DNA of 64,000 nucleotides from Alphaproteobacteria bacterium. Its GTDB lineage: Bacteria > Pseudomonadota > Alphaproteobacteria > Sphingomonadales > Emcibacteraceae. Under the pieces are notes generated by a model. The model did not search any database. It was given only the letters and a program-made list of their open reading frames with translations, and was not told the origin of the DNA. Positions 7,368-25,683 of this stretch are shown here, piece after piece. Location of the stretch: NCBI GenBank assembly GCA_002401455.1, contig NVTE01000002.1, positions 211,860 through 275,859 on the forward strand, given 5' to 3'. The first letter of the stretch is position 1; each line of letters opens with the position of its first letter. Made by a program: the position numbers and the translations under genes.

Positions 7368-7405
7368 AAAAACGGTGGTGCCCCCGAAGGAACGCCACCG
7401 TTTTT
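7368..7405. terminator. Bidirectional terminator between transaminase and kamA-like gene
   Basis: ACGGTGG (7372-7378) pairs with CCACCGT (7395-7401). The A-run before and T-run after extend the stem to AAAAACGGTGG/CCACCGTTTTT, so it can serve both converging transcripts. Confidence 0.85.
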
Positions 7406-7425
7406 TATTGTATCAGGCTTGCGCC

Positions 7426-8841
7426 TTATTGAACTTCGTCGAACAGCCCGGCTTCGTCATAGATCACCCGGTCGTTATAGCCGCTGAACCAGATTGCGTC
7501 TGGATTACGGCCAAGAATAGTGATCTTTCCCCGGTCCGGTGCATCGGCCGCGCCGCGCAGAAGTTTCATCACAATGACGCCTTTTTCACCGCCGGGAATG
7601 CCGGGGGCCGGTGTATTGCTGACCGCGACCACTTCGGTTTTACCCTTGTAATGGGTAATCGACAGGCGGGCGTGGGTTTCAACACCGGACAGGCCCTTTT
7701 GGGACTCATTCAAAATCCGCCAAGCTTCCTCAATCGGTACATTAAAGGCTTTATGACCGATGATATCCCGTCCGCAGAAGAAATAATGGTTTTCCACTTT
7801 ATTACGCTTCAGTTCCCGCTGCATGATACGCAGGGCGTCGGGGTCATTATTGATGCCCTTGATGATCGGGGCCTGGTTATCAACCGTCAGCCATTGCCGT
7901 TTGCCCAGTTCAACGATAGCCCGCTTGGTGCTTTCGATCCATTCCAGACCACCACCCGGAACATCAATATAATTGCCATTTTCGTCCTTCTTCAGGAACT
8001 CATCAGGATGATTGAAATGAACCATCAGGCGGAATCTAGTTTCCGGATAGGCGACATGAAACTTATCAAGCATATCAAAGAAAGTGGCATCGAACCGGTC
8101 AGGGTAAAAGGCCAGCTCCTTAGTGCCCAGACGGATGGATTCAATGCCCGCCTCGGACAAGCCGGCCAGCCAGGCACCAATATTCTTATTGGTCAGCACC
8201 ATGGGATCGCCACCGGACATGAGAATTTCCCGCAGTCTTTCGCGTCCGGTGTCCGGATGACGACCGCCATTCTCGGCAACAAGGCGGTTATGCTCCTTGA
8301 TATAACTGACGATATCGACCAGCTGGGCCATGCCTTTTGCCGCGACAGTTCCGTCTTCCCGTTCGATTTCTTTCTTGGCGATCAGTTCTTCCCGGTAACA
8401 GAAGCGGCAATGGGCAGAACAGGTACCCACCACATAAATCAGACCCAGTTCATATTTATGGATCAGGCCTTCAACCGGGCTATAGCTCATCTGCTTGCCC
8501 GGGTCAGCGGAGCCGTCCAGATCGTAAGTTTCCCGCGGACTGGCCTTGACCAGAACCTGAATCGGTTTGCTGGTCTTGGCGATGTCAAAATAATGACGCG
8601 TGATTTTGACCGGCATCCGTGCTTCCACGTCCAGACCCGTGCCTTTTAAGTCTTCCAGAGCCTGAAGCTCTTCCGGGGAATAGAAACCCTGCATGTCTTC
8701 GGGCACATTGCCAGTGGCAAATTTCTTGATGCCAGCAATAATTTGGCGGTCATATTTGGCGTTCACGACCGTATCCAGGAAGGCCTGCTCCCGCTCTGTG
8801 GGGATGTGTTTGGCCTTCTTTACGGGGGTCTGAATTGTCAT
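7426..8841 (-). CDS. KamA-family radical SAM amino-acid 2,3-aminomutase
   Basis: A 471-residue radical SAM enzyme of the lysine 2,3-aminomutase family, which uses a [4Fe-4S] cluster, SAM and PLP to shift an amino group from C2 to C3. The cluster motif CSAHCRFC has Cys141, Cys145 and Cys148. The GGDP motif (210-213) follows MSG, and the PLP lysine is probably Lys401 in YKGKTEVV. It is longer than clostridial KamA. The second aspartate that grips the lysine side chain in the clostridial enzyme (within the VVDAPGGGGK segment) has no counterpart, as the aligned stretch reads LSITHYKGK. The true substrate may therefore not be lysine. The gene is convergent with the scoAB-transaminase operon and divergent from a LysR regulator. 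Confidence 0.85.
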   Translation of the reverse strand: MTIQTPVKKAKHIPTEREQAFLDTVVNAKYDRQIIAGIKKFATGNVPEDMQGFYSPEELQALEDLKGTGLDVEARMPVKITRHYFDIAKTSKPIQVLVKASPRETYDLDGSADPGKQMSYSPVEGLIHKYELGLIYVVGTCSAHCRFCYREELIAKKEIEREDGTVAAKGMAQLVDIVSYIKEHNRLVAENGGRHPDTGRERLREILMSGGDPMVLTNKNIGAWLAGLSEAGIESIRLGTKELAFYPDRFDATFFDMLDKFHVAYPETRFRLMVHFNHPDEFLKKDENGNYIDVPGGGLEWIESTKRAIVELGKRQWLTVDNQAPIIKGINNDPDALRIMQRELKRNKVENHYFFCGRDIIGHKAFNVPIEEAWRILNESQKGLSGVETHARLSITHYKGKTEVVAVSNTPAPGIPGGEKGVIVMKLLRGAADAPDRGKITILGRNPDAIWFSGYNDRVIYDEAGLFDEVQ

Positions 8842-9997: not shown

Positions 9998-11143
9998 TCA
10001 TGAGCTACGCTCTATAGCCCGACTTTTTGGCTTATTTTCCCGGGGCAGACTGGGCCTGATCAGCAGCAGGCCATGAAGGATAATATACAACCCGAATGAA
10101 GTGACCCAGATCATCGCCGACACTGACAACCAGTCCTCCGATAACACTCTAAGCGGCACCATGACCCGCAAGGCTGCGGCCCCGACCATCAGGACAAAGG
10201 CGGTAATCATGAATTTCCCCGGCACCAACCGCCGCCCCGTATGGCGCAGCGTCACCCGGGTGATCAGTGACAACATCATCAGGCTCAGGGCTCCAACGGT
10301 AAAGGCATGAATCCAGGCCCCTGTGCCGATTTCCGCCCCCATCGTCCCGGCCCCGTATAAAATCATCGCCCCGATGAACCATAAATAGGACACATGCATG
10401 AACAGCACCAGTGGGGCATCAAGGATGAGAAAGCTGCGCCAGCGCAGAAACCGTCCCATTTGCACCGCCGCCGCACAAAAAGCAAAAAGCCCCCCTATCC
10501 GCTCTGGCACATCCGCCAGAACCCCGTATATGAACAGCATCAGGGACAAAGCCGAGAGATATTCCAACCAGGGCAGAACCTTAAGGTCCGGGCCGTTTTT
10601 CTGTCTCAGGGCATTACGGGTAAAGACTGTGGTCAGGAACCCCCCGGCCAAAATGAATTTAGCTATAACCCCCATCAGGCCAATCTGAATACCCCATGAC
10701 GCCCGTGCCATATCGCCGTCGATGATCGCCAGATGAAAGATGACATTGCCGCTGCACAGCATCCCCAGGATGGGTAGCAGGGCCAGGTAATGTTTGTTTT
10801 TCGCCCTGAGCAATCCAGGCAACAGCATGATCCCAGTTAGGCAAAAAAGACTGCTGTCCAGGATCATAATCCCATAAGCCGGGATCACCTCCCCACCATA
10901 AACTGCACCCCTGCCCGATAGCCAGGCCAGAACCAGCAGGGCCAGCCGCCAACCGCGAATTTCCTCCGTTCCCGCCCAGCCCGGCAAGGCTGTCAGGATA
11001 AACCCTGCGACAATGGCCCCGGAAAACCCAAAAACCATTTCATGTCCATGCCAGAGCGGCAGATTATATAATGGGAGGGAAACGTCACTCATTCCCAAAG
11101 GGCTAAACAGGCCTGCTGCCATCAGCCAAAGGCCATAAATCAC
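9998..11143 (-). CDS. NnrS family membrane protein, 5' end anomalous
   Basis: A multi-pass (about 12 segments) inner-membrane haem/copper protein of the NnrS family, linked to nitric oxide and nitrosative stress tolerance. The frame begins at GTG 11143, giving 381 residues, but no ribosome binding site precedes it. The conserved family N-terminus (APLWQSGFRPFYLLG) continues upstream in the same frame as far as about 11190 without an ATG, GTG or TTG. A good ATG at 11212-11214 lies in another frame, separated by a run of eight A on the plus strand (11191-11198). One extra base in that run would join them into a protein of about 404 residues. The gene may be frameshifted, phase-variable or affected by a sequencing error. 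Confidence 0.75.
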   Translation of the reverse strand: MIYGLWLMAAGLFSPLGMSDVSLPLYNLPLWHGHEMVFGFSGAIVAGFILTALPGWAGTEEIRGWRLALLVLAWLSGRGAVYGGEVIPAYGIMILDSSLFCLTGIMLLPGLLRAKNKHYLALLPILGMLCSGNVIFHLAIIDGDMARASWGIQIGLMGVIAKFILAGGFLTTVFTRNALRQKNGPDLKVLPWLEYLSALSLMLFIYGVLADVPERIGGLFAFCAAAVQMGRFLRWRSFLILDAPLVLFMHVSYLWFIGAMILYGAGTMGAEIGTGAWIHAFTVGALSLMMLSLITRVTLRHTGRRLVPGKFMITAFVLMVGAAALRVMVPLRVLSEDWLSVSAMIWVTSFGLYIILHGLLLIRPSLPRENKPKSRAIERSS

Positions 11144-11339: not shown

Positions 11340-12713
11340 CTATTTCCTGAAGATCAGTCGAAAATACAGGCCGCCCTCAGGTGCATTGTGACAATTTATG
11401 CTGCCATGATGGGCAAGCATGATCTGACGGGTCAGACTGAGGCCGATGCCTGACCCTTCTTTTTTGGTGGTAAAGAAGGGCACAAATATCCTTTGCAGCA
11501 TATCCTCTTCAAGACCAGTACCATTATTACTGATCTCAATGACACTGTTGCTGCCGTGATCAATATAAGCCTTCAGGGTGATGCAGGCCTCCGGTGTATC
11601 CCGGACGGCTTCAACAGCATTTTTGACCAAATTTATTATCGCCTGATCAATGAGTTGCGGGTCGGCATTCAGCATAAGTGATGGCGGCGAGACATGGGAT
11701 CTGAGCGTAATATTTTCTGCTGTGCATCGCTCTTCGAACAACTGGATCATCGTCTCGAAAATTGTCGCTACCTTCAGGTGTTGATAGTCCGGTGGCGGTA
11801 CTTTTGTCATTTTTCGATAATTTGACACAAAGCTATCCAGGTGGCCGCTGCGTCGAGAAATGGCCCCGATACCATCCTGCAGATCGCCCAGCATATCGGT
11901 AAATTCATCGGAAATATTTTCCTGCGCCGCCTTGGCGCTAATGTCCTCCATCAACATATTCATACTGCTCGACAGGGAGGCTACCGGGGTCAGGCTGTTC
12001 ATCAGTTCATGGGTCAGAACATGGACCAGATCCTGCCAGGCTTCGACCTGAGTAGTGTCCAGTTCACTCTGGATATTATGCAGGGAAACCACATGACTGG
12101 ACACGCCATCAATGATAATTTTAGTGCTGGCGAGGGAGAATTTAAGCTCCTCATTATTATGACGGAGGCGAATAAGACGTTTTCTGCCCGCCCGGACATG
12201 GTTCAGTTCATAAAGCAAGCTGGGGCCAAAGGCAGTCAGGTCTGAAATTCTGTGAATATGGCTCAGGCCAAACAGCTTCTTGGCAGCATTATTGAGCAGG
12301 GAGGCGTTCTGGTTTTCCGTGATAGACAGCAGAGCCACGGGAATATGATCGATCAGGGCATGAAAATAGCGGCCCTGTTTTTCGTGCTTACTGCGGTCAT
12401 CTTTGAATTTCCCCATGACCTTATCATAGGCCTCCGCCAGGCCCACCTTGCTGCTGCCAAAGCCTTTACGGCCCAGCTTCTGAGAGAAATCAGAAAACTG
12501 TATCGCTTCTAGAAATGAGATCATTTCCCGCTCTGACTGGGTAAGTTTAGTCAACAGGCTCCAGAATTGCACAACAGCCCCTGTCAGCAAAATAACGGCA
12601 ACGGCATGTTTTTCACTGCTGTATAAGACCCAGACCAGAACGAATAATGTGACGCACAGGAGGATAAGACGGACGGCAACATTCAGGGCCATGCGGCTGA
12701 AATTATAGCTCAT
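11340..12713 (-). CDS. Sensor histidine kinase (NtrY-like)
   Basis: A 457-residue membrane kinase. Two hydrophobic segments (about 11-30 and 37-55) with almost no periplasmic loop lead to a PAS-like domain (about 115-215), a HisKA domain with the phospho-accepting His235 in LTHELMNSLTP, and an HATPase domain with NLVKNAVEA, NGTG and GSGIGLSLTRQIM boxes. The short membrane part suggests it senses a membrane or cytoplasmic signal. Its ATG overlaps the end of the upstream response-regulator gene by 11 bases, so the two form a two-component system. The target is most likely the divergent export operon. Confidence 0.9.
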   Translation of the reverse strand: MSYNFSRMALNVAVRLILLCVTLFVLVWVLYSSEKHAVAVILLTGAVVQFWSLLTKLTQSEREMISFLEAIQFSDFSQKLGRKGFGSSKVGLAEAYDKVMGKFKDDRSKHEKQGRYFHALIDHIPVALLSITENQNASLLNNAAKKLFGLSHIHRISDLTAFGPSLLYELNHVRAGRKRLIRLRHNNEELKFSLASTKIIIDGVSSHVVSLHNIQSELDTTQVEAWQDLVHVLTHELMNSLTPVASLSSSMNMLMEDISAKAAQENISDEFTDMLGDLQDGIGAISRRSGHLDSFVSNYRKMTKVPPPDYQHLKVATIFETMIQLFEERCTAENITLRSHVSPPSLMLNADPQLIDQAIINLVKNAVEAVRDTPEACITLKAYIDHGSNSVIEISNNGTGLEEDMLQRIFVPFFTTKKEGSGIGLSLTRQIMLAHHGSINCHNAPEGGLYFRLIFRK

Positions 12714-14088
12714 GCTTTTCCATTCTCCGGTAAAGAGAGGCCCGGGTAATGCCCAGATCTTTTGCCGCCCGGGAAATATTTCCCCGATGCCGCTTCAGAG
12801 CCGTTTCAAGGGCAATTTTTTCCAGTTCCTCCAGCGTTATCTGATCTTTGCCCACAGGGGAGGTGAAAGAAGCCTCTCCGCCGTCCTGCTCCATTCGAAT
12901 GGGAAAATCTGTCGCTTCCAGCTGTTCGCCCTGGGCCAGAATTATCGCCCGCTCCACCCCGTGGCGCAGTTCACGGATATTGCCGGGCCAGTGATAGTCA
13001 CGCAGGATTTTATGAGCTTCCTGGGATAAAAGCCGGATAGATTGATTATATTTCCGGGCATAATGGCGGACAAAATAATCCACAAGCTGGGGGATGTCGC
13101 TGCGCCGATCCCGCAGGGGCGGAACCTGAATTTCCACCGTATTGAGCCGATAGCGCAAATCCTGACGGAATATATTATCCTTGGACAACTCCTCTGGACT
13201 AACGTTGGTGGCACTGATCAGGCGGATATTAATCGCCACCGGCTTGTTGGAGCCCACCGGGGTTACCTGCCGCCGTTCAAGCGCCGTCAGCAATTTGGTC
13301 TGCAGGGCCAGGGGCAGGTTACCGATTTCATCCAGAAACAGGGTGCCGCCTTCCGCCGCCTGCATCAGGCCGATCCGGTCTTCCCGGGCATCGGTGAAGG
13401 CGCCCTTTTTATGGCCGAACAACTCACTCTCAAACAGGTTTTCGCTGATGGACCCCAGATCAACGGTGATCAGTGCGGCGTCCCGGCGCAGGGATTGACG
13501 GTGAATTTCCCGGGCGATCAGTTCCTTGCCCGTGCCATTCTCGCCCAGAATCATGATATTGGCCTCTGTCGGGGCCGCCTGCCCGATGATCTCCATCACC
13601 TGGGCGATGGCCTGACTATCGCCAATCATCCGGTCCGCACTGTCAAGGCTATGCTGCATTTCCCGGTTACGGCTCTTTAGTTTTTTTGATTCTTCGTCAT
13701 AGTGGGCCAGGCGAACCGCCGTGCGCAGGGTTGAAACCAGTTTTGCATTCTCCCACGGCTTGGTGATGAAATCAGTTGCCCCCTTTTTCATCGCCTCCAC
13801 CGCGAGTTCCACGCCGCCGTGCGCGGTAATCACGATGACGATCATGTCCGGCTTTACCGCCAGAATGTCGCCCAGCCAATGCAGGCCTTCGGTGCCCGAA
13901 TCCGCGCCCAGGGTGAAATTCATGTCCAGAAGCACGGCATCAACCTCCTGATTCCGGAGAATTTTTCTGATCTGATCCGGGCGGTTGGTGGTGCTGACCG
14001 AGGCAAAATGGCGTTTCAGCAACAGGCGGGCGGCGATCAGGATATCCTGATCATCATCAACAATGAGAATATTGCCGGTTTTAGCCAT
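12703..14088 (-). CDS. Sigma-54-dependent response regulator (NtrC family)
   Basis: A 461-residue activator. The receiver domain (1-125) has the acidic pocket at Asp11-Asp13 and the phosphorylated Asp55 (AVLLDMNF). The AAA+ domain (about 150-390) has Walker A GENGTGKE (181-188), the sigma-54 contact loop as GAFTDA (228-233, a variant of GAFTGA found in many activators) and Walker B GTLFLDEIG (247-255). A Fis-type helix-turn-helix ends the protein (about 425-458, LKRHRGNISRAAKDLGITRA). It is coupled to the downstream kinase gene and divergent from an operon preceded by a -24/-12 promoter, so it very likely activates that operon. Confidence 0.95.
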   Translation of the reverse strand: MAKTGNILIVDDDQDILIAARLLLKRHFASVSTTNRPDQIRKILRNQEVDAVLLDMNFTLGADSGTEGLHWLGDILAVKPDMIVIVITAHGGVELAVEAMKKGATDFITKPWENAKLVSTLRTAVRLAHYDEESKKLKSRNREMQHSLDSADRMIGDSQAIAQVMEIIGQAAPTEANIMILGENGTGKELIAREIHRQSLRRDAALITVDLGSISENLFESELFGHKKGAFTDAREDRIGLMQAAEGGTLFLDEIGNLPLALQTKLLTALERRQVTPVGSNKPVAINIRLISATNVSPEELSKDNIFRQDLRYRLNTVEIQVPPLRDRRSDIPQLVDYFVRHYARKYNQSIRLLSQEAHKILRDYHWPGNIRELRHGVERAIILAQGEQLEATDFPIRMEQDGGEASFTSPVGKDQITLEELEKIALETALKRHRGNISRAAKDLGITRASLYRRMEKHEL

Positions 14089-14113: not shown

Positions 14114-14154
14114 TTGTTCAGTATCGGACAATAACTGTACGAAAACGAACAGTT
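14114..14154. promoter_or_regulatory. Putative activator binding sites (upstream activating sequences)
   Basis: Inverted repeats lie 60-100 bases before the -24 element: AACTGT-N10-ACAGTT (14133-14154) and TTGTTC-N6-GGACAA (14114-14131). A further CGAACTG half-site lies at about 14166-14172. Position and symmetry fit enhancer sites for the NtrC-type regulator encoded next door. They could also serve an auto-regulated divergent promoter. Confidence 0.45.
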
Positions 14155-14213
14155 TCCGTCAATATCGAACTGCTCATGCGGCCTAACGGATTGATAATAA
14201 ACAATAAGCTAAC

Positions 14214-14229
14214 TGGCACACTCCTTGCT
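14214..14229 (+). promoter_or_regulatory. Sigma-54 (-24/-12) promoter of the export operon
   Basis: TGGCAC (14214-14219), five bases, then TTGCT (14225-14229) matches the RpoN consensus TGGCAC-N5-TTGCW exactly. It lies 36 bases before the ATG of the adaptor gene. The divergent gene encodes an NtrC-type activator. Confidence 0.9.
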
Positions 14230-14264
14230 AGTATTTAAGTGCAGCATTAAAACCGGATACGATC

Positions 14265-15629
14265 ATGGAAAAGAAACCAAACAAGAGAGACAACAAAGTG
14301 GTTGATATGACCCCGAAAAGCTCAACAGTGAAATCTGGCTTAGAAACTGACCAAAAATCTGGTCAAGCCATGGACCGCAGGATAGAAAAGAAAAATACTC
14401 TATTTTCAACCCGGAATATGATGATCGCCGCCGGCCTGGTCGGCGCTCTTGTCCTGTATCTGGCCTTTGCCCCGGAAAGTGGACGTCTGTATAAAATTGA
14501 TGGTGACCGGGTGGTGGTCGCACCGGTGGTCATGGGACAGTTTGAAGATTTTATCCCGGTGCGCGGCCGAGTGACACCAGCGCAAACAGTGTTTCTGGAC
14601 ACCGTTGAAGGCGGCCGGGTCGAGAAAATCCATGTGGAGGATGGTGCCACCGTGACCGCAGGACAAATTCTGGTGGACCTGTCCAATACCAGCCTGCAGC
14701 TTGATGTCATCTCCCGCGAGGCCCAGGTCACCGAACAGCTCAACAACCTCAAGACCATTGAGCTGTCCCTGGAGCAGAACCGGCTGAGCCATAAACGCAA
14801 TCTCATTGAAATTGATTATCAGATCACCCGCCTGAGCCGCCAGGTCGCCCGGCGCAAACAATTAGCCGTCCGCGGCAATGTCTCCATCGCCGACCTTGAA
14901 AACGCACAGGATGAACTGGCTTATTTTAAAAAACGCCATGCCATCACCCTGGAAAGCCAGGCCTCCGATGAAAAGATGCAACAACAACAGATGAAACAGC
15001 TGATAAACTCGACGGAACAGCTGAAAAAAAACCTGATTTTTGCCCGCAGAAACCTGGACAATCTGGTGGTTCGGGCCCCGGTCAATGGCAAACTGACAGC
15101 CTTTGACGCGGTCATTGGCCAGAGCATGGACAGGGGACAACGCTTGGGCCAGATCGACGATCCGGATCACTTCAAGATTAAAGCCCAGATTGATGAGTTC
15201 TATCTTGGCCGGGTTGATGTGGGCCAACGGGCCCTGGTCAAGGTTGGCGGTCAGGAATTAACCCTGAAAGTGAAAAAAACCTACCCCCAGGTCAATAACG
15301 GCCAGTTTGAAATTGATATGACCTTTACCGGACCAACACCCCGGGGCATTCGCCGGGGACAGACCGTGCAAAGCAAGCTGTTTCTCGGCGATACCGGCAA
15401 AGCCATGGTCATTCCCAATGGCAGTTTCTACGCCGACACCGGCGGCTCCTGGATATTTGTTGTCAGCCCCGATGGCACCAAGGCCGTGCGGCGGGATGTG
15501 CGCCTTGGCCGCCGCAACAGCAAGGTCATTGAGGTCATTGACGGCCTGCAGCCGGGCGAAAAAGTCATTGTATCGCCCTATACCAATTATATCGACATGG
15601 ACCGGCTTGAACTGACCGGTGTCAATTAA
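14265..15629 (+). CDS. HlyD/MacA-like periplasmic adaptor
   Basis: A 454-residue membrane-fusion (adaptor) protein. After a 45-residue cytoplasmic tail there is one membrane anchor (about 49-66, MMIAAGLVGALVLYLAFA). Then come a biotinyl-lipoyl-like half (GGRVEKIHVEDGATVTAGQ), a coiled-coil hairpin (about 140-260), the second lipoyl half (LVVRAPVNGKL) and beta-barrel and membrane-proximal domains. It would link the inner-membrane ABC transporter encoded downstream to an outer-membrane channel. No TolC-like gene is in the window. It is the first gene of an operon under the sigma-54 promoter. Confidence 0.9.
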   Translation: MEKKPNKRDNKVVDMTPKSSTVKSGLETDQKSGQAMDRRIEKKNTLFSTRNMMIAAGLVGALVLYLAFAPESGRLYKIDGDRVVVAPVVMGQFEDFIPVRGRVTPAQTVFLDTVEGGRVEKIHVEDGATVTAGQILVDLSNTSLQLDVISREAQVTEQLNNLKTIELSLEQNRLSHKRNLIEIDYQITRLSRQVARRKQLAVRGNVSIADLENAQDELAYFKKRHAITLESQASDEKMQQQQMKQLINSTEQLKKNLIFARRNLDNLVVRAPVNGKLTAFDAVIGQSMDRGQRLGQIDDPDHFKIKAQIDEFYLGRVDVGQRALVKVGGQELTLKVKKTYPQVNNGQFEIDMTFTGPTPRGIRRGQTVQSKLFLGDTGKAMVIPNGSFYADTGGSWIFVVSPDGTKAVRRDVRLGRRNSKVIEVIDGLQPGEKVIVSPYTNYIDMDRLELTGVN

Positions 15630-15656: not shown

Positions 15657-16340
15657 ATGTTAAAACTTAATAATCTCAGCAAGGTCTACCGGACCGAAGA
15701 AGTGGAAACCACCGCCCTCAATAACATCAGCTTTCACATTGAAAAGGGGGAGTTTGTCGCGATCATGGGCCCGTCGGGCTGTGGCAAATCGACGTTACTG
15801 AATATCATCGGCATGCTTGATAATCCGTCCAGCGGCGAATATCATTTTCTGGGAGAAGAAATCGCCCAGGCCAGCGAAAAACAACTGGCCAATATTCGCA
15901 AACAAAACATCGGTTTCATCTTTCAGAGCTTTAACCTGATTGATGAGCTGACGGTGTCGGAAAATGTCGAACTGGCCCTGCTCTATAATGATGTGCCGGC
16001 CAAGGAACGTAAGGAACGGGTCGCCCGGGTTCTGGACAAGGTTGGCATCGCCCACCGGGCCCGGCATATGCCGAGCCAGCTTTCCGGTGGCCAGCAGCAG
16101 CGGGTGGCGGTCGCCCGGGCCCTGGTAGCGGAACCAGCCATGATCCTCGCCGATGAGCCGACCGGCAACCTGGACAGTGCCCACGGTGAAGAGGTCATGC
16201 AAATGCTCAAAAGCCTGAACGAAGAAGGCTCGACGATCATCATGGTCACCCATTCCCCGTCCCACGCCGACTATGCCCGCCGGACCATCAACCTGTTTGA
16301 CGGCCAGGTGGTCACGGAAATTTATCGCGCGGCTGAATAG
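15657..16340 (+). CDS. ABC transporter ATPase (MacB/LolD type)
   Basis: A 227-residue ATPase with Walker [10 protein letters not shown] (38-46), a Q-loop, signature LSGGQQQR (about 142-149), Walker B with ADEPTGNLD, and the H-loop histidine in [11 protein letters not shown]. It belongs to the LolD/FtsE/MacB group, which powers FtsX-like permeases by mechanotransmission rather than by moving substrate through the membrane domain. It lies 27 bases after the adaptor and is followed by two FtsX-type permease genes. The transported molecule is unknown. Confidence 0.93.
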
Positions 16341-16382: not shown

Positions 16383-18833
16383 ATGATCAATAATTATTTT
16401 TTGGTTGCCTTACGCAACTTGGTTCAAAATAAATTATACAGTGCAATTAACATCGGCGGGCTAGCGGTTGGCCTGGCCAGTTGCCTGCTGATCTTCCTGT
16501 TTGTCAAGGATGAGATGAGTTATGATAAATGGATTCCCAATGCGGAGAATATTTATCGGGTGAACATGACATCTATGCGGCCGGGTCGCCCCCCCGATGC
16601 CAGTGCTGAAAACGCCTGGCCGGTGCATGATGCGATCCTGCAGGAATTCCCCCAAATCGAAGAAGCCGCACGGCTCGTCGATCTGGATCATGTTGTCCGG
16701 CAGGGAGAAAACATAAACCGGGAACGCATTATTCATGCGGAGGACAATTTTTTCCGAATTTTTGAACTCCCCCTTTTGGAAGGCGACCCGGAAACCGCCC
16801 TATCGGATTACACCTCAATCATTCTCTCCGAGAAGATGGCGGCAAAATATTTCGGCAGTCAACCGGCCCTGGGCAAAGTCTTTACCGTCGATGATAAAAA
16901 AGATTATAAAGTTGTCGGAATATTCAAAAATCTGCCCCAAAACAGCCATATGGTTTTTGATTTCCTGGTCAGGGTTGAAGACCCGATGTTTCCGGGGTGG
17001 AACCCAGGGTGGGGGTCTAGATTTCTGTATTTATACGTAAAACTCAAACAGGGTACCTTGCCAGAAACCCTCAGCGATCGCTTTGCGGCTATGGTCAATA
17101 AATATGTCGACCGGGAAAATCCCCCGGTCCTGACCCTGCAAAATATCCGTGATATCCATCTTGACCCGAACCTGTCAAACGATATGAAAACCGGCGGAAG
17201 TCGGGTTGCGGTATATACCTTCTCAGGGATAGCAGTCCTGATATTATTCATTGCCGGCATAAATTTTGTTAATCTGTCCACCGCCCGCTCCTCTTTAAGG
17301 GCCCAGGAAGTCTGTCTCCGTAAAGTTATGGGCGCAAGTCGCGGGCACTTGATATTTCAGTTCCTGGGAGAAGCCATTTTCATGATCCTGATTGCCGTCC
17401 TGATCGCCCTGGCGTTGGTTGAACTTGTGTTCCCCTGGTATAATGCTTTTGTCGATAAACAACTGGCCCTGGATTATTTTGGGGACAGATATCTGCTGGC
17501 AACCATATCAGCCCTGATTGTTGTCATCAGTCTACTGGGCGGCCTCTATCCGGCGGTCCTGTTATCTTCTTTCCGCCCGGCGGCCATTCTGAAAGCCAAT
17601 AGCTCAAGCCAGGGCGGCGGCTCACAAGGGTTGCAATCCGCATTGGTCATCCTTCAATTCACCGTATCGATCACTTTGGTCATCTGCACTGCGGTCATCT
17701 CCAGCCAAGTGGACTATATGGGCAATAAGGACCTAGGTTTTGCAAAAGAAAACAAACTGGTCATGAAGGGATCAGGATATAATGGTTTTCCAGCGACAAA
17801 AACCCAGGCATTGGTCACCGAAATCAGTAGCCTCAGGGATGTGGAGACAGTGGCATTTTCTTTCGAAGTGCCCGCCGGAACAAGCGGCCGGACTAATGAT
17901 ATCAGGTTTCTCGACAAGATGGGTTCCCAAAACCAGATCGCCATGAGCTACCTGAAAGTGGCTAAAGGATATTTTCAAACCTATGACGTTCCCCTCCTTG
18001 CCGGGCGTGACTTTTCCCGGGACCGGAGCCAGGATGAATTGGTCGTTCCCAATGACCCCACAACACCATTGAGGCGGGCGTCGGTTATTTTAAATCAATC
18101 GGCCATGCGCAAAATGGGTTATAGCCGTCCGGCAGATATTCTGGGCCAGGTCATTCAGATCCCGGTTCGGGTTGACGGGGCTGAGGGCGGCACCTGGAAC
18201 GAATTGGAGGTCATTGGTGTCGTGCCAGATATGCATTTTTTGTCCCTGCATGAAAAAGTAAAACCCTTCATATTTATCAACCAGAAAAATGGCTTCCGCC
18301 ACCTGACTGTGAAATATCGGCCGGAGGCCAATATCCCGCTTTTAACCTCAGACCTGGGAAAAGCATGGGCCAGGATATTTCCTGACAGTCCCGCGATCAT
18401 GTCGTTCCTTGATGATGACATTGACAAACAATATGAGGGTGACACCAAGATGGCAACCTTGATGGCAACCTTTACCGGGCTGGCAATTGTGATTTCCTGT
18501 CTTGGCCTTTACGCCATGGCGTCGTTCACTACTGACCGGCGAACCCGGGAGATCGGCATCCGAAAAGTGATGGGGGCCAGTGTGTTAGACATCATCAGGC
18601 TGTTGGTCTGGCAGTTCTCGAAGCCGGTGCTGATCGCCAATATCATTGCCTGGCCGGTGGCTTATCTGCTGATGCAGGATTATCTGAACGGGTTTCAGTA
18701 CCGTATTGACCTCGGCCCCGGCACGTTCATCACGGCCAGCGTTCTGACCCTGCTCATCGCCTGGGCCACGGTGACCTGGCACGCCGCCAAGGTCGCGAGT
18801 ACCAAACCCATCACCGCGTTAAGATATGAATAG
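16383..18833 (+). CDS. FtsX/MacB-like ABC permease 1
   Basis: An 816-residue permease with two MacB-PCD + FtsX modules. TM1 is near residues 20-40, then a large periplasmic domain (about 45-260), three membrane segments (about 285-410, with the NFVNLSTARS and EVCLRKVMGASRGHL motifs), a further segment (about 425-450), a second periplasmic domain (about 460-680), and three final segments ending in ITALRYE. The RTREIGIRKVMGAS motif in the second half is the conserved coupling helix. This two-module architecture is frequent in Acidobacteria, Bacteroidetes and some Proteobacteria, often beside NtrC-type regulators. It probably pairs with the next gene. Confidence 0.9.
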   Translation: MINNYFLVALRNLVQNKLYSAINIGGLAVGLASCLLIFLFVKDEMSYDKWIPNAENIYRVNMTSMRPGRPPDASAENAWPVHDAILQEFPQIEEAARLVDLDHVVRQGENINRERIIHAEDNFFRIFELPLLEGDPETALSDYTSIILSEKMAAKYFGSQPALGKVFTVDDKKDYKVVGIFKNLPQNSHMVFDFLVRVEDPMFPGWNPGWGSRFLYLYVKLKQGTLPETLSDRFAAMVNKYVDRENPPVLTLQNIRDIHLDPNLSNDMKTGGSRVAVYTFSGIAVLILFIAGINFVNLSTARSSLRAQEVCLRKVMGASRGHLIFQFLGEAIFMILIAVLIALALVELVFPWYNAFVDKQLALDYFGDRYLLATISALIVVISLLGGLYPAVLLSSFRPAAILKANSSSQGGGSQGLQSALVILQFTVSITLVICTAVISSQVDYMGNKDLGFAKENKLVMKGSGYNGFPATKTQALVTEISSLRDVETVAFSFEVPAGTSGRTNDIRFLDKMGSQNQIAMSYLKVAKGYFQTYDVPLLAGRDFSRDRSQDELVVPNDPTTPLRRASVILNQSAMRKMGYSRPADILGQVIQIPVRVDGAEGGTWNELEVIGVVPDMHFLSLHEKVKPFIFINQKNGFRHLTVKYRPEANIPLLTSDLGKAWARIFPDSPAIMSFLDDDIDKQYEGDTKMATLMATFTGLAIVISCLGLYAMASFTTDRRTREIGIRKVMGASVLDIIRLLVWQFSKPVLIANIIAWPVAYLLMQDYLNGFQYRIDLGPGTFITASVLTLLIAWATVTWHAAKVASTKPITALRYE

Positions 18834-18842
18834 GAGCTTAAA

Positions 18843-21293
18843 ATGTTCAAAAACTATATCCTGATTGCCCTGCGCAATATGATGCACAACAAGCTTTACA
18901 GCCTGATTAATATCGGGGGGCTGGCTCTGGGCCTGGCGGTTTTTGTCTTTGCCACGGTTCTGTCGAATTATGAGAAAACCCATGATATGTTTTTTGACAA
19001 AGCTGACCGGATTTATACCCTGGGATCGGTCTTTTCACCGACCGCCAATGTCGGGGTGATAGAAGATGATAATGTCTATACAACGATGGCCCCGCTATTG
19101 ACGGCAGAGGTGCCCGATATTGAGGCCATCGCGCGGATCGTCAAACACGAATTTCTTCTGTCAATGGGCGACCGGAAATTCTATCAGGACATCAAGTTCG
19201 CTGATAAAGCGTTTTTGAAAATTTTTGATTTTGACTATCTGGCCGGGGACAGCAGCGCCCTTGATGATCCTTCGGGCATAGTGTTGACCGAAACAATGGC
19301 GAGAAAATATTTTCCGTCGCCGGACTTTTCCGCTGAGATGGCAATGGGACAAGTGATCTCGCTGGATCATAAACATGACCTCCGGGTGACGGCTGTGATC
19401 CGTGATGTCCCCAAAAATTCACATTTTTCCTCTTCCCTGTTCGGAGATTATCTTGCCGTTGTTGCGACCCTGCCCGCCCTTAACAAGATGACGGGCTATA
19501 ACCTGGACGGAAACTGGGGCAATTTGACCAGTGGAAATCTGACCTATGTCCTGCTGCCCGCCCATCTTGATGCTGAGTGGCTTGAGAGGCAGGCCAATGG
19601 GGTCTTTGATCGTCATGCCTCGGACTATGCCAAAGACTATCTCACCGGCCTCAAGAGCCATCGCCTGCAGGATGTGAATCTGGTGATATGGGACATGCTG
19701 GGCCTGCCTGTCATTGAGGGCATGGTGGTGCTGGGTTTTCTGGTGCTGATCATTGCGGGACTGAATTATACCAACCTGGCCACGGCCCAGGCCATGGGAC
19801 GGGCGAAAGAAGTTGGCCTGCGCAAAACCATGGGGGCGTCAAGGGGCCAGCTTCTGACACAATTCCTGATCGAAAGCATGGCGATCGCCATGATTGCCAT
19901 GTTGGTGGCCCTGGCGATGCTCGAAATGATTATTCCGGTCTTTAATGACAGTATGGGAAAAATAGTGTCTTTGGAGTATTCGTCTTTGCTGCCCTCCCTT
20001 ATGGGCGTCACCTTTCTGGTCGGATTGATTGCCGGTCTCTATCCGGCCTATGTCATTATCAGAGCGACACCCGTAGATGCCCTGAATAACGCCCTTGGAA
20101 CAGGATCAAAGGGGTCCTTTGTCCGCAGCTGCATGATGGGGGCCCAGTTTGTTATTTCTATTGTTATGCTGGCCATGGTTGCCGTGGTGTCGTTCCAGAA
20201 TGAAAAGATGAAGGAAAGCAGTGAAATTTATCCAAAATCACAGATTGTGACCTTGCAAAGACTTGGAGTCGATGACCTCCAGGGCCGGCTTGAGACCTTG
20301 CAAAGGGAAATGAACACTATTCCAGAAGTAGAGAATGTTACCTTTTCCAGCAGGGTACCTTTTGAACAGGGATCCTGGACATTTGACGTCACAAAAAATT
20401 CGGGGGATGTGGCGGCCAAAGTCAGTCTTCATCGAATTGCGGTGGAGTATGACTTCCTGAAAACCTATGATATTCCCCTCATTGCGGGCCGGGACTTTTC
20501 CCGTGACTTCGCCAATGATCTGGAGACAAGAGACTCTCGCGCTGTCAATGTCATCCTCAATGAACTGGCCTTGAAAAAAATAGGGTTCGCCTCGGCGGAG
20601 GATGCCCTTAACAAGAGCTTTTATCAGGTCTACGGGGGACACGCGGCGGCAAAAAAATCGAAAGCCTATGTCATCGTCGGTGTGATGGCGGACCAGAATT
20701 TTCTGGGATTGCACAATGATGTCAAACCATTCGTCTTTCGGGTGGACCCCCGTTACTATTACAAAGCTTCCATCCGGATCAAAGGCCAGAATTTAACCCA
20801 GACCATGGAAGAAATTAATGACATCTGGCAGAAAATTAATCCAGACTATCCGATTCAGGTTAAGTTTCTGGATGAAATTTTTGACATGACTTTCAAGCGC
20901 AGCCGGGCGATAAATATGGTGCTCGCCGGCTTTGCAGTTATGGCTTTGACCCTGGCGTTTGTTGGCCTGTTTGGCCTGTCTGCCTTCATGGCGGAACGGC
21001 GGACCAAGGAAATCGGACTTCGCAAGGTGATGGGGGCGAAAACCCATCAGATTGTCCTGTTGCTGATCTGGCAGTTCTCCCGTCCCGTATTATGGGCGCT
21101 GGCGCTGGCCTTGCCACTGGCCTACCTGGCCTCTGACGCCTATCTCACGTCCTTTGCTGACCGGATTAATCTGCAAATGGTCCTGATCGCGGGGTCAGGC
21201 CTTGTGGCCCTTGTATTATCCTGGCTCATTGTATCGGCTCATGCTGTGCGGGTTGCCCGCAGAAAACCCATCACCGCCTTAAGATACGAATAG
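18843..21293 (+). CDS. FtsX/MacB-like ABC permease 2
   Basis: A second 816-residue permease, a paralogue of the gene nine bases upstream. It shares the same start (MFKNYILIALRNMMHNKLYSLIN), both coupling motifs (KEVGLRKTMGASRGQL and TKEIGLRKVMGAK) and the same final ITALRYE. The periplasmic domains differ much more than the membrane parts. With one ATPase gene and two permeases, a heterodimeric transporter is likely, with each permease offering a different periplasmic surface. It is the last gene of the sigma-54 operon, and a terminator follows. Confidence 0.9.
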   Translation: MFKNYILIALRNMMHNKLYSLINIGGLALGLAVFVFATVLSNYEKTHDMFFDKADRIYTLGSVFSPTANVGVIEDDNVYTTMAPLLTAEVPDIEAIARIVKHEFLLSMGDRKFYQDIKFADKAFLKIFDFDYLAGDSSALDDPSGIVLTETMARKYFPSPDFSAEMAMGQVISLDHKHDLRVTAVIRDVPKNSHFSSSLFGDYLAVVATLPALNKMTGYNLDGNWGNLTSGNLTYVLLPAHLDAEWLERQANGVFDRHASDYAKDYLTGLKSHRLQDVNLVIWDMLGLPVIEGMVVLGFLVLIIAGLNYTNLATAQAMGRAKEVGLRKTMGASRGQLLTQFLIESMAIAMIAMLVALAMLEMIIPVFNDSMGKIVSLEYSSLLPSLMGVTFLVGLIAGLYPAYVIIRATPVDALNNALGTGSKGSFVRSCMMGAQFVISIVMLAMVAVVSFQNEKMKESSEIYPKSQIVTLQRLGVDDLQGRLETLQREMNTIPEVENVTFSSRVPFEQGSWTFDVTKNSGDVAAKVSLHRIAVEYDFLKTYDIPLIAGRDFSRDFANDLETRDSRAVNVILNELALKKIGFASAEDALNKSFYQVYGGHAAAKKSKAYVIVGVMADQNFLGLHNDVKPFVFRVDPRYYYKASIRIKGQNLTQTMEEINDIWQKINPDYPIQVKFLDEIFDMTFKRSRAINMVLAGFAVMALTLAFVGLFGLSAFMAERRTKEIGLRKVMGAKTHQIVLLLIWQFSRPVLWALALALPLAYLASDAYLTSFADRINLQMVLIAGSGLVALVLSWLIVSAHAVRVARRKPITALRYE

Positions 21294-21399: not shown

Positions 21400-21747
21400 T
21401 CAGCCCGCCCCGCCTAAAAAGGTCATGCGCAACAGATGGACATAATCGGATTCCAGCACCATTAACGCCACCAGAACCAATATCGCCCCCGGCGGCACAA
21501 TAATCAGATAGAGCAGTGCCAGACGCTCCCACATCATATGCATGAAAACACTGATAATCAGCCCGGCCTTCAGTAGCATAAAGATGATAATCAGGCTCCA
21601 GCGCATCAGGCCCTCCACATTGAAATAATCAACGCTGTAGGACAGGCCGCTTAAAATGAATAACAGCGCCCAGATCTTCAGGTACAGCCCGATCGGGTGC
21701 TGTTGGCCTTTATGGTCTGCTGCTACATTCTGTGATATCTGACCCAC
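21400..21747 (-). CDS. Cytochrome c oxidase subunit IV
   Basis: A 115-residue protein with three membrane segments, of the prokaryotic cytochrome oxidase subunit IV family (CyoD/CtaF-like). The frame is open further upstream, but the start chosen is GTG at 21747, since AAGGAG stands six bases before it. It helps to stabilise the oxidase complex in the inner membrane. It is the last gene of the operon, ten bases after the second subunit III gene. The core (YLKIWALLFILS, LKAGLIISVFMHMMWER) is characteristic. Confidence 0.85.
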   Translation of the reverse strand: MGQISQNVAADHKGQQHPIGLYLKIWALLFILSGLSYSVDYFNVEGLMRWSLIIIFMLLKAGLIISVFMHMMWERLALLYLIIVPPGAILVLVALMVLESDYVHLLRMTFLGGAG

Positions 21748-21757
21748 AATATTCTCC

Positions 21758-22453
21758 TTACCAAAGATAGAAAAATGCGAAGATGAAAACCCAGACCAGG
21801 TCGACAAAATGCCAGTAGAGGCCGGTAATCTCGACAATCTGATAGTCACCCCGTCGCTCATAATCCCCCTTCAAAACCTTGATCGCCACGACCGTCAGAT
21901 AGATGACGCCCACCGACACATGAAGACCGTGAAATCCGGTGATCATAAAGAATGTCGCGCCAAACTGGTGAGCCCCAAAGGGGTTCTCCCACGGCCGCAC
22001 GCCCTCATGAATCAGTTTGGTCCATTCAAAAGCCTGCATACTGACAAAGCTCAGACCAAAAAGAGCCGTCACCAGCATCAGGATTCCGGCTTTTTTCCGG
22101 TCGCCCCGATAGCCCATATTGACCGCCATAGCCATGGTGCCACTGCTACTGATCAGAATGAAGGTCATGATTGCAATCAGAACCAGCGGCAGCTCCACCC
22201 CGCCGATGGTCAGGGCAAAGACTTCACTTGGGTTGGGCCAGGGCACGGTGGTGGTCATGCGCACCGTCATATAACCGGTCAGAAAAGTGCCAAAGATGAA
22301 GGTATCGCTCAGCAGGAATATCCACATCATCGACTTACCCCAGGACACATTCTTGAAGGCCTCGCGGTCGGAGGCCCAGTCGGTGAGCAGTTCCTCATGC
22401 CGTCCTATGGGAGCCGGAGTCTTTTCTGAAGGGGTGTGGTTATTACGCGCCAT
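21758..22453 (-). CDS. ctaE: Cytochrome c oxidase subunit III
   Basis: A 231-residue subunit III with seven predicted membrane segments. WGKSMMWIFLLSDTFIFGTFLTG, the GFHGLHVSVG motif and the final YWHFVDLVWVFIF are hallmarks of the family. I chose ATG 22453 (MARNNH) because GGAGAAGG lies just before it; an ATG five codons upstream would overlap that site. Subunit III stabilises the proton-pumping core and may guide oxygen. It follows another subunit III-like gene, so the operon has two paralogues. Confidence 0.85.
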   Translation of the reverse strand: MARNNHTPSEKTPAPIGRHEELLTDWASDREAFKNVSWGKSMMWIFLLSDTFIFGTFLTGYMTVRMTTTVPWPNPSEVFALTIGGVELPLVLIAIMTFILISSSGTMAMAVNMGYRGDRKKAGILMLVTALFGLSFVSMQAFEWTKLIHEGVRPWENPFGAHQFGATFFMITGFHGLHVSVGVIYLTVVAIKVLKGDYERRGDYQIVEITGLYWHFVDLVWVFIFAFFYLW

Positions 22454-22464
22454 ATCCTTCTCCT

Positions 22465-23070
22465 TCATGTCACCAGCAGCAACAGAAACAGGCCGAGCCA
22501 GACCAGCAGCATGAAATGCCAGTAAGTGCCACAGAGTTCCATACTAGCCGTGACCTTATCCGCGGCGGCCCCGCTGGCACTTTTCCTTAAGCCCCGGCCC
22601 CAGGCCACCAGCCCACCCAAAAGATGCAGGCCATGAAGTCCGGTAATCAGGTAGAAAAAAGCATTGGCCGGATTGACCCGGGCATAGGCCCCAAGGGCGA
22701 TCAGCTGCTGCCAGGCCATGATCTGCCCCAGCAGAAACAGGATTCCGGCAACGCCGCCGGCCATGAACATCCGGCGGGCCCGGACCATGTCACCGCGCCG
22801 GCCAAGGCGGGTCGCCCAGTGCATCAGGATACTGCCGATCAGCAACACAGCGGTATTAGGCCATAATATCCACGGCTCGACAAGAACCTGCCAGCCGCCA
22901 AGCATCATCCGCATATAATAGGCGGTGGCGAACAGGCTGAATAAAGCAGTCGCAACCCCGATAAACACAAACAGGCCCAGGCGTGTGGTTTTCAGGCTGG
23001 CCCCGCCATCGCCAGGGGCCTGGTCAAAGGCTTTGCCATCATCAAGCCAGGGTTTTGTCAAAATACTCAT
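22465..23070 (-). CDS. Second cytochrome oxidase subunit III-like protein
   Basis: A 201-residue protein with five or so membrane segments. It is related to subunit III by GLHGLHLLGGLVAWG and by the ending CGTYWHFMLLVWLGLFLLLL. It is shorter and more diverged than its downstream neighbour. Its ATG overlaps the stop of the subunit I gene (ATGA). Paired short and long subunit III genes occur in some haem-copper oxidase operons, but the role of the second copy is unclear. Confidence 0.75.
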   Translation of the reverse strand: MSILTKPWLDDGKAFDQAPGDGGASLKTTRLGLFVFIGVATALFSLFATAYYMRMMLGGWQVLVEPWILWPNTAVLLIGSILMHWATRLGRRGDMVRARRMFMAGGVAGILFLLGQIMAWQQLIALGAYARVNPANAFFYLITGLHGLHLLGGLVAWGRGLRKSASGAAADKVTASMELCGTYWHFMLLVWLGLFLLLLVT

Positions 23071-24875
23071 GTCCCGCCCTCCTCTGGCTTATCTTCCCCA
23101 GGTTTATCTTCTTCTGGCCCCTCTTCCGGATGGGCCGCCCGGTGGGCCTCAAAGGGTTGAGGCGGCATATTCTGCGGCATATAATCCTCCGCCGCACCCG
23201 GCACACTGAAGTCATAGGCCCAGCGATAGACGGTGGGCATTTCAACGCCCCAGTTGCCGTGTTTCGGCGGTGTATCGGGCGTCTGCCATTCCAGGGAATT
23301 AGCCTTCCACGGATTGCTGTCAGCTTTCTTTCCCCAGATCAGGCTCCAGACAAGATTATAGATGAACATCAATTGCGCCGCCCCGACCACCAACGCCGCT
23401 ATGGTGATCGCCATATTCAGGTCGGCGACAGAATCCGGGATGAACTCGATATCCTCATAATCATAATAGCGCCGGGGTACGCCGACAAAGCCCAGGTAAT
23501 GCATGGGGAAATATATGGCGTAAGTGCCGAGGAAGGTCACCCAGAAATGAACCTTTCCCATGCCTTCATGGAGCATGCGGCCGGTAATTTTCGGGTACCA
23601 GTGATAGATAGCACCAAAGACCACCAGGATTGGCGCAACCCCCATCACCATATGGAAATGGGCCACGACAAAATAAGTGTCCGACAGGGGCACATCGACC
23701 ACCACATTGCCCAGGAACAGCCCGGTCAGGCCGCCAAAAACAAACGTCAAAATAAAGGCGATGGCAAACATCATCGGGATGGTCAGGTGAATATCCGCCT
23801 TCCACAGGGTCAGGGTCCAGTTATAGACCTTGATCGCCGTCGGTACCGCAATGATCAGAGTCGTGACTGCAAAGAAATAGCCAAACGCCGGGTCCATACC
23901 GCTGACATACATATGATGGGCCCAGACGATAAAACTCAAGACGCCAATAGCCAGCAATGCCCAAACCATCATCCGGTAACCAAAAATAGCCTTCCGCGCA
24001 TGAACGCTGAGCAGGTCCGAGACGATGCCAAACGCCGGCAGTGCGACGATATAAACCTCCGGATGGCCAAAGAACCAGAACAGATGCTGAAACAACAGTG
24101 GACTGCCGCCGCCATACGCCAACGGCTCACCCAGGGAGACAATCTCCGGCATGAAAAAGCTGGTGCCGATCACCCGGTCCAGCAGCAGCATCACGCCACT
24201 GACAAACAGCGCAGGGAACGCTAGAAGCCCCATAAAAGTGGCGACAAAGATGCCCCAGACCGACAGCGGCATCCGCATCAGGGTCATACCCCGCGCCCGG
24301 GCCTGCAAGATTGTCGTGACATAATTCAGCCCGCCCATGGTGAAGGCGACGATGAAGATAATCAGCGACACTAGCATCAGGATAATGCCCCCGTCATAAC
24401 CGGGGGTGCCTGGCAGGATCGACTGGGGCGGATACAGGGTCCAGCCAGCCCCGGTGGGACCGCCAGTAACAAAGAAGCTTGCCACCAACACCAGAACCGC
24501 CAGCAGGTAAACCCAGTAGCTGAGCATATTCAGATAGGGAAACACCATATCCCGCGCCCCGACCATCAACGGGATCAAATAATTACCAAAACCGCCAAGG
24601 AAAAAGGCCGTCAGCAGATAGATCACCATAATCATGCCGTGCATGGTGACATATTGGTAATAGGCTTCCTGATCGATAAAGTCGAACACCCCCGGAAAGC
24701 CCAATTGCAGCCGCATCAACCACGACAGCACCAGCGCCACAAGGCCTATGGCCATGGCGGTTATGCTATACTGGACCGCAATAACCTTATGGTCTTGGCT
24801 CCAGATATATTTGGTAAAGAAATGCGTCGGCTCGTGCATCTCCGCGTCATAATCCTTGGCAGTTTCATCAGTCAT
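23067..24875 (-). CDS. ctaD: Cytochrome c oxidase subunit I
   Basis: A 602-residue haem-copper oxidase catalytic subunit with 12 membrane helices, reducing O2 to water and pumping protons. HPEVYI contains the CuB histidine, the Glu of the D-channel and the cross-linked Tyr, placing it in the A1 type. The haem-ligand segments (MHGMIMVIYLL; VAHFHMVMG with the tandem haem histidines) and HHMYVSGMD are intact. The C-terminal 80 residues are acidic and hydrophilic. Its ATG overlaps the end of the subunit II gene by eight bases. Confidence 0.95.
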   Translation of the reverse strand: MTDETAKDYDAEMHEPTHFFTKYIWSQDHKVIAVQYSITAMAIGLVALVLSWLMRLQLGFPGVFDFIDQEAYYQYVTMHGMIMVIYLLTAFFLGGFGNYLIPLMVGARDMVFPYLNMLSYWVYLLAVLVLVASFFVTGGPTGAGWTLYPPQSILPGTPGYDGGIILMLVSLIIFIVAFTMGGLNYVTTILQARARGMTLMRMPLSVWGIFVATFMGLLAFPALFVSGVMLLLDRVIGTSFFMPEIVSLGEPLAYGGGSPLLFQHLFWFFGHPEVYIVALPAFGIVSDLLSVHARKAIFGYRMMVWALLAIGVLSFIVWAHHMYVSGMDPAFGYFFAVTTLIIAVPTAIKVYNWTLTLWKADIHLTIPMMFAIAFILTFVFGGLTGLFLGNVVVDVPLSDTYFVVAHFHMVMGVAPILVVFGAIYHWYPKITGRMLHEGMGKVHFWVTFLGTYAIYFPMHYLGFVGVPRRYYDYEDIEFIPDSVADLNMAITIAALVVGAAQLMFIYNLVWSLIWGKKADSNPWKANSLEWQTPDTPPKHGNWGVEMPTVYRWAYDFSVPGAAEDYMPQNMPPQPFEAHRAAHPEEGPEEDKPGEDKPEEGGT

Positions 24876-25683
24876 TTTTATCTCCCTCCTGTTCGGCCAT
24901 CATCTCAGCAAAAGTCAGCTGGTCGGCCAGCCATAGCTGATAAGCCGCCGCCTCTTCGACGATGACAATTCCGCGCATTTGTGAATGGCCCACGCCACAG
25001 AGTTCCGCACAAAGGATTTCAAATTCACCGGTCCGGATCGGGGTGAACCAGAAATAGGTCACCATGCCCGGCACCAGGTCCATTTTGGCGCGAAATTGCG
25101 GCACGTAAAAATCATGCAGCACATCAAGTGACCGCAGATAAACAATCACAGGCTGGTCCAGAAGAATATGCATGTCATCCCCCTCGATGATAATGTCATC
25201 CCGGCCGAGAGGGTCTTGCGGGTCCAGACCCAGCGGGTTATCCCCGGAAACAAACCGGGTCGCGGCCTGACCAAGCTCACCGTCCTGACCGGGCAGGCGA
25301 AAATTCCAGCTCCATTGCTGGCCCACCGCCTCAAAGGCGCGGGCTTCTGCCGGTGGATTGATATATTGCGCCCAGACAACCAAGCCCGGGGCGAGCATAG
25401 CGATAATGCCGACCGTCGTCAGGCCGGTCAGCCACCATTCCAGTTTCTTGTTTTCGGGCTCAAACGTCGCCCGCCGACCGGGCTTATGGTGAAATTTGAA
25501 AATGGCCAATGCCATGAAAAGAGTGACCGCGACAAAGACAATCCCCGTGATCACAAAAGTAATGATCAGAGCATCATCTATGGTGCCCCAATTGGAGGCC
25601 AGTGGCGTGAACCACCAGGGACTTACGAAGGTAAACACCACGGTGATGATCACCAACACCACTAATATAATTGCTAAAACCAT
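24868..25683 (-). CDS. ctaC: Cytochrome c oxidase subunit II
   Basis: A 271-residue subunit II with two N-terminal membrane helices (about 3-25 and 40-63) and a periplasmic cupredoxin domain. The dinuclear CuA site is complete: His in VLHDFYVPQF, then CAELCGVGHSQM (C-x3-C-x3-H-x2-M). No CxxCH haem c motif follows, so it is of the aa3 rather than the caa3 type and needs a separate cytochrome c. It is the first gene of the operon ctaC-ctaD-III-III-IV. Assembly genes (ctaB, ctaG) are not nearby. Confidence 0.95.
   Translation of the reverse strand: MVLAIILVVLVIITVVFTFVSPWWFTPLASNWGTIDDALIITFVITGIVFVAVTLFMALAIFKFHHKPGRRATFEPENKKLEWWLTGLTTVGIIAMLAPGLVVWAQYINPPAEARAFEAVGQQWSWNFRLPGQDGELGQAATRFVSGDNPLGLDPQDPLGRDDIIIEGDDMHILLDQPVIVYLRSLDVLHDFYVPQFRAKMDLVPGMVTYFWFTPIRTGEFEILCAELCGVGHSQMRGIVIVEEAAAYQLWLADQLTFAEMMAEQEGDKND

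Follow-up and report, generated by a model that had tools for sequence, protein, structure and literature searches.

What controls an ABC export operon that lies back to back with the genes of a two-component system? The question is raised by positions 14214–14229 of the 64,000-nucleotide stretch of DNA analysed here (the window), where a candidate sigma-54 promoter faces the adaptor gene of such an operon and the genes for an NtrC-type regulator and its histidine kinase run the other way. Comparison of sequences makes it highly likely, in our judgment, that the locus is a conserved signal-controlled export switch, leading from kinase to regulator, tandem enhancer, sigma-54 promoter, and MacAB-like exporter. 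From the DNA itself we read the genes, rpoN, the promoter with its conservation, and the conserved tandem palindromes, which in the sampled genomes are nearly confined to this module; phosphorylation, binding, activation, the direction of transport, and an envelope-acting compound as the signal are what we infer.

Table 1. Features of the two-component system and export operon, in window coordinates
Feature	Position	Strand	Remarks
Histidine kinase gene	11340..12713	-	457 aa; H-box HELMN, HATPase_c
NtrC-type response regulator gene	12703..14088	-	461 aa; receiver, sigma-54 AAA+ with GAFTDA loop, Fis-type HTH
UAS1, distal enhancer palindrome (predicted)	14115..14130	.	TGTTCAGTATCGGACA; centre 104 bp upstream of -12
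UAS2, proximal enhancer palindrome (predicted)	14136..14151	.	TGTACGAAAACGAACA; centre 83 bp upstream of -12
Weak sigma-70-like site TTGACG-17-TACAGT	14134..14162	-	Overlaps UAS2, points to regulator gene
Sigma-54 -24/-12 promoter TGGCAC-N5-TTGCT (predicted)	14214..14229	+	TGGCACACTCCTTGCT
Periplasmic adaptor, HlyD/MacA/DarC-like	14265..15629	+	454 aa; one predicted N-terminal TM helix
ABC ATPase, DarD/MacB/LolD-like	15657..16340	+	227 aa
ABC permease 1, ADOP-like duplicated	16383..18833	+	816 aa; MacB_PCD x2, FtsX x2
ABC permease 2	18843..21293	+	816 aa; FtsX x2, MacB_PCD x1

The kinase and regulator genes overlap by 11 bases, and the gaps within the export operon are 27, 42, and 9 bases (Table 1). 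Pfam places Response_reg, Sigma54_activat, and HTH_8 domains in the regulator, which is the three-domain NtrC-type composition, and the domain matches bear out the divergent activator and kinase genes of the initial annotation. The adaptor, the ATPase, and a MacB_PCD/FtsX permease make up a MacAB-type component set (Pfam); the two permeases share 32% identity. The source genome assembly (2.08 Mb, 69% complete) contains rpoN, as well as four strong matches to the sigma-54 activator domain (E below 1e-60, the module regulator included) and three weak ones. An NnrS-family gene (9998–11143) adjoins the kinase gene, and a cytochrome oxidase-like cluster, recognized by eye (21400–25683), converges on the exporter from the opposite side.

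The candidate promoter, TGGCACACTCCTTGCT on the plus strand, is the perfect TGGCAC-N5-TTGCT that had been reported upstream of the adaptor gene, and is separated from the ATG at 14265 by 35 bases (not 36, as first given). It has GG at -24, GC at -12, and the correct spacing, and transcription would presumably start near 14240, the position we take from the consensus spacing. The site is the one exact match to TGGCAC-N5-TTGCW in the window, where matches with up to two mismatches number 35 against 38 expected; in the whole genome, four exact copies compare with three of the reversed pattern. With copy numbers at chance level, the string by itself is no evidence, and we rejected any significance claimed from the bare match in window or genome. 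What makes the promoter convincing is its conservation across loci, the presence of rpoN, and the tandem palindromes described below.

Relatives of the module were collected by searching with the adaptor. Matches were found in 4 of 16 genomes of the genus, in at least 7 of 289 genomes of the class, and in at least 14 of 398 genomes of the phylum; each count includes the source genome, and the best four to five candidates per genome were scored in the class and phylum searches. Genome contigs yielded 12 loci, and the set studied comprised 34 loci including the window. We excluded duplicates of two Emcibacter records (L064, L065) and a contig of 3 kb (G162). We ran the comparison of neighbouring genes that had been proposed at the outset, and found the regulator divergent from the adaptor in 27 of the 34 loci (all except L019, L022, L044, L045, L050, L062, and L063), with another gene in between in Bacteroidetes. 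In the two Bacteroidetes versions checked (L018, L020), an outer-membrane efflux (OEP) gene lies between regulator and adaptor. The number of permeases differs from locus to locus, and by sequence the arrangement is present in distant bacteria. A second, diverged exporter is found in G001, a relative assembled as a single contig (L063; adaptor at 2207557–2208813 of G001:C1); its regulator and kinase genes lie downstream of it in the same orientation, and its adaptor is preceded by a strong sigma-54 site.

Each region between regulator and adaptor was scored for its best sense sigma-54 site, on a scale with a maximum of 15 and with weights based on the published consensus. A score of at least 13 was reached by the sense strand in 20 of the 27 divergent loci, by the antisense strand in 4, and by the reversed pattern in none, and in 19 of the 27 the observed score was attained by no more than 2% of 500 dinucleotide shuffles. 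Before the orthologous adaptors of these 27 loci, the site is conserved in both position and orientation. The low score of one locus (L046) arises because clipping of the region cut off its perfect site, which lies 29 nt within the longest reading frame. Four others (L052–L055) have weak sites with a TTGTA-type -12 element, though these lie about as far from the regulator gene as elsewhere. The comparison indicates that 14214–14229 is very probably the working sigma-54 promoter of the exporter.

Upstream of the promoter lie two 16-bp palindromes of the type TGTnCr-N4-ynGnACA, 21 bp apart, which the initial annotation had overlooked. A palindrome-constrained motif search, given the stretches upstream of the sigma-54 site, returned agTGTtCGaTAtCGaACAct, with log-likelihoods of 172–259 over widths of 14–22 against 15–31 in letter-shuffled controls (three per width). 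At least one copy scoring 7 bits or more is present in 24 of the 27 divergent loci, compared with 0.06 matches per letter-shuffled region. Pairs with centres 20–22 bp apart occur in 19 of the 27 (exactly 21 bp in 16), and in 13 of these 19 the proximal palindrome is 81–86 bp from the -12 element; the distance in the other six is 62 (L047), 73 (L015), 76 (L057), 96 (L014), 114 (L046), and 240 bp (L058). Two loci have pairs at wider spacing (30 bp in L048, 40 bp in L061), and three have a single nearby copy (L017, L059, L060). The window palindromes fall within the range of about 80–150 bp upstream of the promoter that is typical of enhancers.

A motif trained on 23 loci, with the Emcibacter group (the window, L011, L012, and L043) held out, placed UAS2 first (22.9 bits) and UAS1 second (15.6) over the entire window, the next match scoring 10.5. 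The motif is absent from 3 of the 27 divergent loci, all of them in Bacteroidetes (L018, L020, L021); GTnAA-type repeats noticed there by eye, which might be an enhancer of another kind, were not singled out by the palindrome ranking. The regulators of these three loci read TRQTLYNK in the recognition helix, and 23 of the 24 motif-bearing loci read [ST]Rxx[LM]YRR, the remaining one (L016) being truncated; this difference is only suggestive because it tracks phylum. As judged from sequence conservation, the tandem enhancer is a new element and, in the sampled genomes, sits almost only at the module.

How specific the pair is can be seen from genome-wide searches. With one mismatch allowed, the tandem pair occurs in 13 of the 23 genomes picked for the adaptor, at one place each, as it does in the source genome; all 13 lie ahead of the exporter, and the reversed control gave none. 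The exact pair occurs in 7 of the 398 phylum genomes, every time at the exporter promoter. Allowing one mismatch there adds one exporter (G505) and four places elsewhere (G576, G458, G669, G492), again with none for the reversed control, so that the pair lies outside the exporter in 4 of 12 genomes. The 27 divergent loci are mutually related and served to train the motif, and all seven genomes with the exact pair had supplied training loci; independent support therefore comes only from the near-absence of the pair elsewhere, the held-out test, and the module in G731 described next.

A composite pattern, consisting of a sigma-54 site and one palindrome, matched 10 of the 23 adaptor genomes (control, none), 9 of them at the exporter, and had additional places at G286:C15, G155:C5, and G505:C6, the last being the sole match in its genome. 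The 13 genomes that did not match include those of L052–L055, with their weak -12 elements. Over 385 genomes of the class, the composite pattern matched 11 genomes (control matches in 2) at 13 distinct places, of which 6 are at modules of this kind. Among them is a further complete module in G731 (L137), discovered by the pattern search alone. Another, in G131 (L135), begins with a 114-aa secreted protein (7377–7721, with a sub-threshold PepSY match) followed by an ATPase and a permease, and no adaptor was found in it.

Two of the additional places point to targets outside the export operon. A site in G155 stands ahead of a lone permease with the same 102/72 geometry as that genome's own exporter promoter (L048), and in G286 a site lies about 40 bases before the gene of an exported S41 peptidase, with two overlapping candidate sigma-54 sites (scores 12.0 and 13.6). 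Five of the 13 places in the class search have no support as targets. The match at G505:C6 (L082) sits inside a coding frame and is unconvincing as an extra target, and G669, G066, G734, G199, G067, and G237 were not convincing either, the last five on a short look at most.

The regulator itself is not always adjacent. In G190 and G286 the closest relatives of the regulator (55% and 56% identity) are encoded about 310 kb and 31 kb from the exporter, and the exporter still has a sigma-54 site and a pair of palindromes, here spaced 17 bp apart; given sites kept at the exporter and a regulator located elsewhere, the regulator probably acts in trans. "Self-contained", as the module was described in the initial annotation, is therefore too strong, in view of the unlinked regulators of these two genomes and the similar sites at the lone permease of G155 and the S41 peptidase of G286. 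Between promoter and adaptor, the exporter loci of G190 and G286 (L044, L045) have a single-helix open reading frame of 47–50 aa, counted by eye, possibly a small subunit or peptide. Elsewhere in the source genome, exact sigma-54 matches lie about 46 bases before a GGDEF-type gene, diguanylate cyclase-like by eye (L004, C17:13309–13324), and about 50 bases before a 276-aa open reading frame that looks secreted by eye (L001, C8:127805–127820); neither has an enhancer palindrome 30–160 bp upstream of the match.

The loop of the activator domain in the window regulator reads GAFTDA, not GAFTGA. A script reading of 28 module regulators gave GAFTDA in 14, GAFTGA in 9, GSFTDA in 2, and GAFTNA in 1; the script left 2 unread, and inspection by eye shows GAFTGA in one of these (L015). 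In Desulfovibrio vulgaris, GAFTDA is listed among the loop variants expected to stay functional (PMC4641369). The pull-down reported for VfmH, which bears GAFTDA, was without RpoN (PMC10714721), and this makes the variant a real caution.

The palindromes might mainly control the regulator's own gene through the weak minus-strand sigma-70-like site that overlaps UAS2, with the exporter served by some other activator or promoter. A similar placement of that site in L011 and L012 agrees with this reading, as does the single palindrome just upstream of the unlinked regulator gene in G190 and G286. We nevertheless consider it improbable: the distance from palindrome to sigma-54 site is similar in most loci, the exporters of G190 and G286 retain their two palindromes and sigma-54 site with no regulator beside them, and the sigma-70-like site is not above chance (one found, 0.8 expected) and is missing in L043. 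Any such minus-strand site occurs in 7 of the 27 loci. Autoregulation through the site at UAS2 is possible.

Less probable still is that the exporter answers to a different sigma-54 activator encoded in the genome, for instance within a general response to envelope stress. Candidates for the role exist, since the remaining three strong activators look DctD-like, LuxO-like, and PspF-like by eye, the last adjoining a PspA-like gene; but it is the divergent regulator that accompanies the adaptor in 27 of 34 loci, and the tandem palindromes are almost confined to the module among the genomes sampled. That the -24/-12 match is a chance resemblance, as its near-equal numbers in forward and reversed form might suggest, can be dismissed as very improbable in view of the conserved position and orientation of the site, with strong sense sites in 20 of 27 loci, and of its placement downstream of the palindromes. 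The divergent regulator is very probably, on these comparisons, the activator of the exporter promoter, and the link first drawn between the two-component system and the export operon is supported by the conserved promoter, the tandem palindromes, and rpoN.

What the kinase may sense is suggested by its predicted structure (AlphaFold; mean pLDDT 81.7, pTM 0.53). In this model and in an alignment of 21 sequences, helices 8–32 and 36–72 are joined by three residues, so the suggestion that the kinase has almost no periplasmic part has held up. After the hairpin come a helix (87–122), a strand-helix-strand region (127–213), the pair of H-box helices, and finally the ATPase domain. Residues 127–213 are predicted to form a cytoplasmic PAS-like fold, an assignment that rests on the model, as Pfam reported no PAS domain in the kinase and listed the ATPase domain alone. 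In structure, the model is matched best by chimeric LOV (PAS-type) histidine kinases, aligned over about 370 columns with a high overall rmsd of 12–20 Å and TM of about 0.3–0.4. Given the lack of a periplasmic domain in the model, an internal, intramembrane, or transporter-derived signal is more likely than direct binding of a periplasmic ligand to the kinase.

Taken together, we propose that the membrane-embedded kinase would phosphorylate the NtrC-type regulator, which would bind the two 16-bp palindromes, two helical turns apart, and from 104 and 83 bp upstream activate RpoN-polymerase at 14214–14229. Adaptor, ATPase, and the two ADOP-like MacB/FtsX permeases would thereby be turned on, and the exporter, probably with a TolC-type protein encoded elsewhere, would remove a compound from the inner membrane or periplasm, by expulsion or extraction. 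No outer-membrane factor gene is present in the export operon of the window, and OEP genes are present elsewhere in the genome. The operon had been described as a secretion module without identified cargo. An export operon it is, and no peptide precursor or cargo gene was seen in it; because it contains no cargo gene, dedicated secretion is no likelier than efflux or detoxification.

The enhancer pair and sigma-54 promoter would constitute a defined, portable regulatory code for a patchily distributed family of exporters. Such a code allows unlinked targets of the regulator to be sought from DNA alone, a search that here yielded the lone permease and the S41 peptidase, and these targets offer a testable route towards both signal and cargo.

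Among known systems, the exporter resembles MacAB-TolC and ADOP in its adaptor, ATPase, and MacB_PCD/FtsX permease, and sequence matches tie the window adaptor and permease 1 to MacA and MacB chains of solved structure. It differs in having separate genes for ATPase and permease and duplicated permeases of 816 aa, which fall below the cut-off of the ADOP model TIGR03434 (309 and 248 against 622 bits). The darobactin exporter DarBCD provides the top NCBIfam model for the adaptor and ATPase and the second for both permeases; identity with it was rejected, as the scores are 236 of the required 450 bits (NF038010), 290 of 375 (NF038007), and, for the permeases, 157 and 129 of 700 (NF038008). The regulatory half is like NtrB/NtrC, ZraS/ZraR, and AtoS/AtoC in placing a regulator with receiver, AAA+, and Fis-HTH domains beside a kinase gene and in having an enhancer some 100 bp away from a -24/-12 promoter, whereas here the palindrome is its own, the exporter is the main target, and there is no periplasmic sensor. 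Scores stay below the NCBIfam equivalog cut-offs for these systems.

Bce kinases are not known to have an extracellular sensor domain, and in lacking one the window kinase is like them. A further likeness is the pairing of an ABC transporter with a two-component system, which in BceAB-RS of Firmicutes induces the transporter (PMC10314905); here, the module differs in its adaptor, its sigma-54 NtrC-type regulator, and the PAS-like fold of its kinase. By analogy, we offer tentatively, as a rather unlikely reading, that the module is a Gram-negative sigma-54 counterpart of Bce, in which the hairpin kinase would read the working state of the FtsX/MacB-type transporter. If so, the demand for transport would switch on the pump itself and, in certain genomes, also helpers encoded elsewhere, such as an extra permease and an S41 peptidase.

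A published study has already connected sigma-54 with FtsX-type permeases in general: COG0577 permeases are enriched for sigma-54 control in Gammaproteobacteria, Opitutia, and Bacteroidia, in what is presented as the first such evidence (PMC12316311). This was the sole directly relevant paper on a sigma-54-controlled exporter of this kind that we found in the open-licence literature, where, supplements aside, no account of the enhancer palindrome or the divergent arrangement was found; its main text does not contain "upstream activat", "divergent", or "HlyD", and PMC3162934 gave no match for transporter terms. The module described here would take that published statistical link further, to one particular regulator with its operator and arrangement of genes.
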